In this document: positions 2,406 through 4,093 of the stretch, piece by piece
How the letters are laid out: the number at the start of each line of letters is the position of its first letter
Numbering within the stretch: position 1 is the stretch's first letter
Source: a virus
Length of the DNA stretch: 31,717 nt
IMG/VR virus record: IMGVR_UViG_3300037480_000032
Coordinates: 1 to 31,717 of that record
Strand: one strand, 5' to 3'
Translations under genes and position numbers: made by a program
The notes under the pieces: model-generated
Database searches by the model: none
What the model was told of the DNA's origin: nothing
What the model saw: only the letters and a program-made list of their open reading frames with translations

Positions 2406-2885
2406 ATGAACACAGCAAAAGGTAATGTAGAAGTAATTAGTGAACGAGCAGCAGGTAAAGGCACAGCCTTTAATTTTAAACTAGATGATGGAGAGTGGTA
2501 TAGCTATGGCTTTAAGGCTCCTAAGTTTAAGAGGGGAGACTTTGTAGAGTTTGAATTTAGTGGTCAGTATAAGAATGTAGATGTTGAGAGTGTTCTTATT
2601 AAGGCAGGAGCCGAGCAGCCTACAGCAAGTAAAGCTAAGGGCGGTACAGATTGGGAAGCTAAAGACAAGCGTATCACTTATCTAGCAGCACGTAACTCTG
2701 CTATTGCAGCAGTGACACTGTTGATTGACGCAGGTGCTATTAAGATTGGTACTAAGGAAGCAGATAAGTATGCCATTGTAACAGGGGCTATTGATAAGAT
2801 TGCTGGAGAATATTTCCAAAAGTCTTGGGCTAATACAGACTATGTAGCAGAAGAAAAACAACAAGAGAAACATGACGAGGACTAA
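2406..2885 (+). CDS. Putative single-stranded DNA-binding protein
   Basis: 159 aa. The N-terminal part (about 1-65) is beta-rich, with alternating hydrophobic strands (GNVEVISE, AFNFKLDDGEWYSYGF, GDFVEFEFSGQYKNVDVESV), as in an OB fold. A helical region follows (about 95-140), and the end is strongly acidic and Gln/Glu-rich (EEKQQEKHDED). An OB-like body with an acidic tail next to the DNA polymerase is the architecture of phage SSBs such as T7 gp2.5, where the tail contacts polymerase and helicase. No specific motif confirms it. Start ATG 2406 has AAGGAG at 2395-2400. Confidence 0.55.
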   Translation: MNTAKGNVEVISERAAGKGTAFNFKLDDGEWYSYGFKAPKFKRGDFVEFEFSGQYKNVDVESVLIKAGAEQPTASKAKGGTDWEAKDKRITYLAARNSAIAAVTLLIDAGAIKIGTKEADKYAIVTGAIDKIAGEYFQKSWANTDYVAEEKQQEKHDED

Positions 2886-2886
2886 T

Positions 2887-3138
2887 ATGAGCTTATTTGA
2901 AAACGAGAACTATAAAGTAGTGGTAGGGGAGAGTATTGATTATGATGGCCCCACAAAACCAAGACTGCTTTACCAAATAGTCAATACAAAAACAGATGTA
3001 ATTGAACGAGAGGACTTTATGTATCCCTCTGCTGTAGATATAGCTAGACGCCTGAACGAAGATGTTATGGCAATAGAGCTTGATCTTAAAGACGAGGATG
3101 TTCTTGATCAATTAGTGGAGGAAGGTGTAGCCCACTAA
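2887..3138 (+). CDS. 83-aa conserved-looking phage protein, unknown
   Basis: The chosen start is ATG 2887 (MSLFENENYKVV), which has GAGG at 2877-2880 at normal spacing. An upstream in-frame ATG at 2872 lies inside the preceding gene and has no Shine-Dalgarno sequence. The protein is small, acidic and mixed alpha/beta; its N-terminal half reads like a beta sheet (YKVVVGES, RLLYQIVNTKTDVIE) and the C-terminal half is helical. No catalytic motif is seen. It is the last coding gene before the tmRNA-like RNA at 3145. Confidence 0.7.
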   Translation: MSLFENENYKVVVGESIDYDGPTKPRLLYQIVNTKTDVIEREDFMYPSAVDIARRLNEDVMAIELDLKDEDVLDQLVEEGVAH

Positions 3139-3144
3139 AAGTTT

Positions 3145-3221
3145 GGGGCTGGATTGGTTTCGACTTCTGTAAAACCTACGGGTAGCAGGAGGACTTGGGT
3201 TCGATTCCCAACAGCTCCACA
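3145..3221 (+). ncRNA. Miniature tmRNA-like RNA: tRNA-like domain without the mRNA-like domain
   Basis: GGGGCUG (3145-3151) pairs with CAGCUCC (3212-3218), including a G-U wobble at the third pair, followed by A3219 as discriminator. These are the alanine-tRNA-synthetase determinants, and the stem is the same as in E. coli tmRNA. The next 13 nt (3152-3164) contain GGUUUCGAC, the tmRNA D-loop-like signature. The T arm is perfect: UUGGG/CCCAA (3195-3199 with 3207-3211) around loop UUCGAUU, preceded by GGAC as in tmRNA. The P2 helix UUCUG/CAGGA (3165-3169 with 3186-3190) is closed by a short hairpin (ACC-UACG-GGU) instead of the tag ORF and pseudoknots. CCA is not encoded (C-A-U follows A3219). 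No D stem or anticodon arm can be folded, so it is not an ordinary tRNA. It lies in a 100-base gap between co-directional genes, with no promoter of its own visible. Confidence 0.82.
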
Positions 3222-3238
3222 TTTTAATAGGAGGATAT

Positions 3239-4093
3239 ATGAAAGCTTTGATTGACGGGGACATTATCCTCTATGCATGTGGCTTTGCAGCCCAACATAA
3301 ATACTATCGTGTGCGTCCTGTAGCTTGGCGTGACAGCGATAATTATTTGGAAGAGTTTAGATATAAGAAGGAAGCTAAAGCATGGATAGAGGGACTTGAG
3401 GACGGCCTAGAGATATATACTAGAGACGATATAGAACCACTCTCTCATGCTGTACAAAATATAGATGTCTTAATAAAAAGAATAATGAAGGAGACAGGTA
3501 GTGACAGCTACAATATTTATCTTACTGGTAGTGATAATTTTCGCGATGAATTGGTAGATTATTATAAGAAGAATCGTGATCCAACACACAAGCCTTATTG
3601 GTATAAGGAGCTTAAAGAATATTTGATTGAATGTTATGATGCAATAGTAGTGGATGGACAGGAAGCTGATGATGCTATGGGTATAGCTCAGATGAAAGGA
3701 ATGAACAGCTTTGATATATTATCTCATGGAACCGAGTATCCCACTATCATCTGCACAACAGATAAAGACCTGAACATGATACCTGGGTGGCATTATAATT
3801 GGCAGAAGGATAAGAAGTATTGGGTGACTGAAGAAGGAGCTACCCGCTCATTCTATTTCCAACTACTAACGGGTGACAGCACAGATAATATTAAGGGTGT
3901 TGCTGGAATAGGATTTAAAGGAGCGGAGAGGATACTATCTAGGATGGAGACAGAAAAAGAAATGTTCATTGCTGTCGAGAAATCCTATCAAGATTTGTAT
4001 GGAACATGGGAGGGTACTAAATTTATGGAAGAGAACGTAGCCTTATTGTGGATACGACGAGAGGAGGATATGGGATGGGAACAGCCGAAGTAG
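3239..4093 (+). CDS. 5'-3' exonuclease (FEN/PIN family, T7 gp6-like role)
   Basis: 284 aa. FEN-family metal-binding motifs appear in order: LIDGDIILY (4-12), GQEADDAMG (140-148; E142, D144, D145), TTDKDL (173-178; D175, D177) and TGDSTDNIKG (211-220; D213, D216). The last is followed by the helix-three-turn-helix segment GVAGIGFKGAERIL (220-233). This enzyme family removes 5' flaps and RNA primers, and in T7-like phages also degrades host DNA and helps recombination. The start has GGAGG at 3230-3234. It lies directly downstream of the tmRNA-like RNA, so both are probably on one transcript. Confidence 0.93.
   Translation: MKALIDGDIILYACGFAAQHKYYRVRPVAWRDSDNYLEEFRYKKEAKAWIEGLEDGLEIYTRDDIEPLSHAVQNIDVLIKRIMKETGSDSYNIYLTGSDNFRDELVDYYKKNRDPTHKPYWYKELKEYLIECYDAIVVDGQEADDAMGIAQMKGMNSFDILSHGTEYPTIICTTDKDLNMIPGWHYNWQKDKKYWVTEEGATRSFYFQLLTGDSTDNIKGVAGIGFKGAERILSRMETEKEMFIAVEKSYQDLYGTWEGTKFMEENVALLWIRREEDMGWEQPK

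Follow-up and report, generated by a model that had tools for sequence, protein, structure and literature searches.

In bacteria, stuck ribosomes are rescued by tmRNA. Its tRNA-like domain (TLD) is bound by SmpB, the pair mimics a tRNA, and the G3-U70 pair of the acceptor stem is the determinant for alanine (PMC3985003). A TLD fragment together with SmpB is a structural tRNA mimic that works on ribosomes in vitro (PMC3929946), and an engineered T. thermophilus TLD, made of the 5' 25 nt and the 3' 34 nt with a UUCG loop, has been crystallised with SmpB (PDB 2CZJ; PMC3985003). The mitochondrial tmRNAs of jakobids are reduced to the tRNA-like part and have no tag (PMC11915505), and the plastid tmRNAs of Mallomonadaceae are tag-less and ~65 nt long. 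Among phages, the mycobacteriophage DS6A carries a TLD-only tmRNA (Mao et al. 2009, as cited in PMC4131195 and PMC11915505), and in the literature searched it is the single phage for which such an RNA is noted. The TLD-only tmRNA as a kind is thus known already, from DS6A, jakobid mitochondria and some plastids. The same papers describe a DS6A-like TLD RNA as a strong inhibitor of endogenous tmRNA in E. coli, perhaps through titration of SmpB (PMC4131195; PMC11915505), and as inhibitory whether chargeable or not (PMC4131195).

The RNA described here lies in a 31,717-nt stretch of DNA (the window, which denotes the whole stretch that was analysed), a 31.7-kb IMG/VR record of a virus with a VpV262-like DNA polymerase. 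The window carries terminase, portal, head and polymerase genes, and the TLD-only RNA is therefore phage-encoded. The Rfam tmRNA model RF00023 matches positions 3145-3222 of the + strand at 65.6 bits (gathering threshold 47, E 1.2e-23, cmscan), and the alignment covers the model ends (1-374) with a deletion of 306 positions between them; no RNA family besides RF00023 matched in the window. A covariance model built from 18 phage copies with the window copy left out (R1) scores the RNA at 69.5 bits (E 1.3e-14). ARAGORN called neither a tRNA nor a tmRNA gene in the window, a silence that is expected for a form without the mRNA-like domain. The sequence-only reading had placed a mini-tmRNA at this locus, and both models bear it out; its account of the tmRNA structure, the G3-U70 pair, the missing tag and the position among replication genes agrees with base reading and annotation.

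As judged from its sequence, the window RNA is the TLD of a tmRNA closed by a short P2 hairpin, with a predicted mature length of 75 nt before CCA addition (3145-3219, + strand). The 5' strand of the acceptor stem (GGGGCUG, 3145-3151) makes 7 of 7 pairs with 3212-3218, giving a perfect 7-bp stem whose third pair is G3147-U3216 (G3-U70). The 3' strand (CAGCUCC, with the discriminator A73 at 3219; 3212-3219) is followed directly by CAU, and CCA is absent from the gene. The degenerate D-arm, GGUUUCGAC (3156-3164), aligns to the RF00023 consensus; this D-like loop corresponds to the region that contacts SmpB in known structures, and its leading GG is nearly invariant among copies, even in the set whose search pattern left GG free. 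Folding gives a P2 helix of 7 bp (CUUCUGU at 3164-3170 with GCAGGAG at 3185-3191), and its loop holds a 3-bp hairpin with UACG (ACC-UACG-GGU, 3174-3183) that corresponds to a covarying 3-bp hairpin in relatives. This apical mini-hairpin stands in for the entire mRNA-like domain. The GGAC junction (3191-3194), placed by sequence and consensus alignment, leads into the T arm (UUGGG-UUCGAUU-CCCAA, 3195-3211), which has 5 of 5 pairs; relatives show covariation at T-stem pairs 1 and 2. The single-sequence minimum-energy fold of the window RNA does not form the T arm, so that its assignment rests on homology and covariation. A P2-loop motif, AAAG-CCGCACGCGG-A, recurs across diverse phages (L008 and L133, for example); in these loops the 5' internal loop is purine-rich and the tetraloop is variable.

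The window RNA shares with canonical tmRNA (ssrA, RF00023) the acceptor with G3-U70 and A73, the T arm, the GGUUUCGAC loop, GGAC and the base of P2, and with its 7-bp acceptor and degenerate D loop it has the parts by which a tmRNA TLD is recognised. Unlike canonical tmRNA, it contains no tag reading frame, resume codon or stop, and it has no pseudoknots, for which 75 nt (against about 350) leave no room. There is no anticodon arm either; its place is taken by the P2 hairpin and the tmRNA-type loop. A permuted two-piece tmRNA was considered and rejected, as the window gene has its 5' end first and RF04321 scores just 13.3 bits. In the engineered T. thermophilus TLD, which binds SmpB, both tmRNA ends are likewise joined by a short hairpin, but that molecule is a laboratory construct whereas the phage RNA is natural, with a P2, an internal loop and an apical hairpin of its own. 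The jakobid mitochondrial and Mallomonadaceae plastid tmRNAs also consist of the tRNA-like part alone; they belong to cellular lineages, whereas the window RNA is a viral gene that would act beside a resident full-length tmRNA. The tmRNAs of OM43 phage Melnitz (PMC9004378) and Synechococcus phage S-CAM1 are phage-borne as well, but these full-length or permuted forms retain the mRNA-like domain that the window RNA is without. The nearest likeness is to the DS6A RNA, which, by its published description, is also phage-encoded and holds little beyond the TLD and no tag. What sets the present phage apart is its VpV262-like polymerase together with a gene set of its own, and the analysis extends the form to many phage groups. 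The DS6A precedent also corrects the sequence-only reading, which knew of no earlier description of such a phage RNA (PMC4131195, PMC11915505).

Within the window, the RNA sits in a 100-nt gap between the stop of an 88-aa open reading frame (ORF) at 3138 and the ATG of an exonuclease gene at 3239, all on the + strand. The upstream ORF (2872-3138, family unknown) stops 6 nt short of the RNA, and the downstream gene (3239-4093) is 5'-3' exonuclease-like (phrog_107). The gene run around the RNA includes a family A DNA polymerase (gene annotation, 367-2205, + strand), an HNH endonuclease, a metallophosphoesterase and a ribonucleotide reductase. One related contig (L208) shares the gene order of the window (polymerase, 160-aa ORF, small ORF, exonuclease, HNH-like ORF, phosphoesterase-like ORF) but has no mini-tmRNA, and its small ORF abuts the exonuclease. 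Its exonuclease has 42% identity to that of the window, and its 160-aa ORF is placed as the 159-aa ORF of the window. The RNA was also absent from other polymerase relatives, among them VpV262, other Zobellviridae, StenR_269 and HTVC033P. The RNA is thus an optional cassette in the lineage of the window. An Rfam match in StenR_269 (10.9 bits) was rejected because it lies beside tRNA-like sequence and has neither the tmRNA loop nor GGAC. A DNA search of the 2.4-kb region of the window against named phages gave no match.

The homologues that the sequence-only reading called for exist in number, as a pattern scan found the mini-tmRNA in at least 119 viral contigs. In the first pattern, the D-like loop and the GGAC/T arm, separated by 16-46 nt, were the sole fixed elements and the acceptor was left free. 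It returned at least 70 distinct sequences, counting that of the window, in which the acceptor could be read. A relaxed pattern, which fixed C71, C72, A73 and a pyrimidine at 70, brought many further copies, and the counts are lower bounds. A pattern variant with GGATTCGAC found just 5 viral contigs, and two candidates (L169 and L173) were discarded as tRNA-like false matches. Most copies have about 26-32 nt between the two tmRNA ends. When 84,980 genomes of bacteria and archaea were scanned with the first pattern, 3 contigs matched, one of them with phage head genes; the contrast with the viral count speaks for phage specificity. A contig of an Anaerolineae metagenome-assembled genome (MAG; L131) holds a normal mini-tmRNA and, ~70 nt upstream and in the same orientation, a weaker, divergent copy (592-668, 737-800), and the copy in a Mycobacterium MAG (L132) had no match among phage records.

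The copies occur in varied surroundings. The neighbourhoods of 42 diverse copies hold, among others, genes for primases, helicases, exonucleases, capsids and portals, and 100 of the 126 larger ORFs near copies share the strand of the RNA. Most of the scanned loci have no or few tRNA genes and some have many; four phage contigs with a mini-tmRNA carry 10-28 tRNA genes (L030, L062, L079, L107), two of which (L030 and L079) each have one tRNA call with an odd anticodon. The isolated Streptomyces phages LuckySocke, GiJojo, Alone3, pSt2308, BRock and Shaeky also match. The RNA lies within a tRNA array in LuckySocke (L133), BRock (L134), Shaeky (L135) and pSt2308 (L137), R1 confirms the mini-tmRNA in all four, and the records of these four phages have no RNA annotated at its position. 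In GiJojo, an ORF annotated as a hypothetical protein overlies the match. ARAGORN made no correct mini-tmRNA call among the loci scanned. It did report a 324-nt tmRNA with a tag peptide in one contig (L041, 5905-6228), which was rejected as it overlapped an intact mini form; the call looks like a false extension, and ARAGORN tag peptides in phages warrant checking. A candidate in S-CAM1 (L136) was rejected because it reads as a permuted full tmRNA, a two-piece gene at 1990-2200 that is unannotated in the phage record.

All helices of the mini-tmRNA covary, including the acceptor, T and P2 stems for which covariation had been proposed as a check. Among 83 distinct aligned sequences, the covariation score is 0.684, against 0.129 for shuffled and at most 0.076 for slid alignments. 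Standard pairs fill 96.7% of pair cells in the 83 distinct rows, compared with 67.6% when shuffled and at most 56.8% when slid, counts that are biased in favour of the structure since the alignment was fitted to it. Changes on both sides were found somewhere in 6 of 6 modelled P2 pairs and 3 of 3 apical pairs, and a hand parse independent of the model alignment gave the same compensation in the acceptor and T stem. These patterns indicate that the mini-tmRNA is under selection as an RNA. The P2 loop shows no sign of a tiny hidden tag, as stop triplets there are not enriched over shuffles; they are rarer (25 versus 34.4 +- 3.6).

The alanine identity is frozen against this changing background. 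When three doubtful matches are removed from the 83, 80 of 80 distinct curated copies have G-U at acceptor pair 3, which shows 0 parsimony changes on a tree built without the acceptor columns, whereas pairs 4, 5 and 6 show 19, 34 and 25. A73 is likewise present in 80 of 80. The relaxed pattern imposed A73 and a pyrimidine at 70, but the first-pattern set, in which the acceptor was unconstrained, gave the same result: 69 of 69 copies have G-U once two are set aside, one for a damaged acceptor (L012) and one for an unreadable 5' side (L093). The damaged copy (~2515-2600, - strand) otherwise equals L003 and is missing a few bases of the 3' acceptor strand, so that the stem cannot form; either the allele is broken or the assembly is at fault. 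The median pairwise identity among copies is 66%, and common ancestry alone therefore explains the frozen G-U poorly.

Phages probably use the mini-tmRNA to take over or block host ribosome rescue. The working that we favour, and hold to be somewhat probable, is that of a functional TLD-only RNA that is alanylated, bound by SmpB and EF-Tu, and able to displace tmRNA at stalled ribosomes and so block tagging. The RNA would be transcribed together with the replication genes and excised in the manner of a tRNA. A host enzyme would add CCA, which the gene does not encode, and host alanyl-tRNA synthetase (AlaRS) would charge the RNA through the observed G3-U70 element. The kept D-like loop, T arm and acceptor suggest that host SmpB and EF-Tu would then bind. 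If the RNA took the place of host tmRNA in stalled ribosomes, the missing resume codon and tag would prevent trans-translation from finishing, and host tagging and mRNA clearance would be competitively blocked during infection. A phage SmpB gene was found in 0 of 31 mini-bearing records searched, many of them fragments, which suggests that the SmpB partner would be that of the host; if active, the RNA must by inference use host AlaRS, EF-Tu and SmpB. A second full tmRNA above the cut-off was found in 0 of 22 mini-bearing records. The picture of an alanylated, SmpB-binding blocker without a frame fits the published work on DS6A-type RNAs (PMC4131195, PMC11915505). Against blocking, syntenic relatives lack the RNA, and some protist mitochondria keep tag-less tmRNAs whose presumed role is to help, not to block (PMC11915505).

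Pure blocking does not fully account for the fixed G-U. Inhibition is reported to be independent of charging, so titration alone would have no need for it. That G3-U70 is nevertheless never lost suggests that entry of the alanyl-RNA into the ribosome matters at the natural dose. Chain transfer could be followed by a dead-end complex (blocking), untagged release or untemplated alanine addition. One account of this step is that the alanyl-mini-tmRNA and SmpB take over the stalled chain and free the ribosome untagged (by drop-off, peptidyl-tRNA hydrolase or a release factor), sparing phage products from degradation, or, in a variant, add alanine to the stalled chain with no template. The fixity of G3-U70 and A73 while neighbouring pairs change freely points to a need for charging, mitochondria and plastids retain tag-less tmRNAs, and a TLD fragment, given SmpB but no mRNA, yields polyalanine in vitro (PMC3929946). 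We nonetheless consider rescue of this kind unlikely, as the sole known in vivo test of such a molecule showed inhibition of tmRNA (PMC4131195), and neither an RF-1-domain factor nor a peptidyl-tRNA hydrolase (Pth) gene was found in 30 mini-bearing records (0 of 30 for each, many of them fragments), although host enzymes could serve. A narrower version, in which the charged RNA and host SmpB repeatedly enter mRNA-free stalled ribosomes with untemplated alanine addition or untagged release, seems distinctly doubtful. If true, a template-free ribosome rescue run by the phage would replace host tagging, and the constancy of the alanine mark would be accounted for even though inhibition is reported to be charging-independent.

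The same conserved features bear on two further explanations. The sequence-only reading had suggested a decoy for a defence that targets tRNAs, and the RNA could serve as a decoy or a sensor where host defences are directed at tRNAs or tmRNA, as with a toxin acting on the acceptor end or on aminoacyl-tRNA. Several phages do place the RNA in tRNA arrays beside RNA ligase, a gene set linked with tRNA repair; the analysis lent the suggestion no support, since conservation falls on the tmRNA-specific loop and the alanine identity and not on the general tRNA form, and a molecule with no anticodon arm has no site there for anticodon nucleases. Moreover, the window itself has no ARAGORN tRNA or tmRNA, and few if any tRNAs accompany the RNA at most scanned loci, so that a decoy appears very improbable. 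Decay of a full-length phage tmRNA, or an att remnant left by phages that integrate at ssrA, would also yield a shortened tmRNA, and integration at ssrA is frequent and full tmRNAs are known from phages (PMC9004378, PMC10654092). Such a relic, which would have refuted the sequence-only reading, is scarcely credible here. The stems are intact and covary in unrelated copies, and a closed P2 joins both tmRNA ends whereas att sites typically hold the 3' segment only. BRock has the RNA but no predicted lysogeny genes, and the single copy with a damaged acceptor is the one set aside above.

What is new is the breadth of the mini-tmRNA across phages, its covariation and its fixed alanine identity, for which no prior report was found in the literature searched. 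The same design recurs in very diverse phages, in replication, structural and tRNA-array contexts. The fixed G-U suggests selection beyond SmpB titration, given that inhibition is reported to be charging-independent. The isolated Streptomyces phages make the idea directly testable, for example with LuckySocke on S. lividans. Taken with the strict covariation and the frozen alanine mark, the diversity of the phages that carry this RNA gives interference with ribosome rescue the look of a strategy to which phages turn repeatedly.
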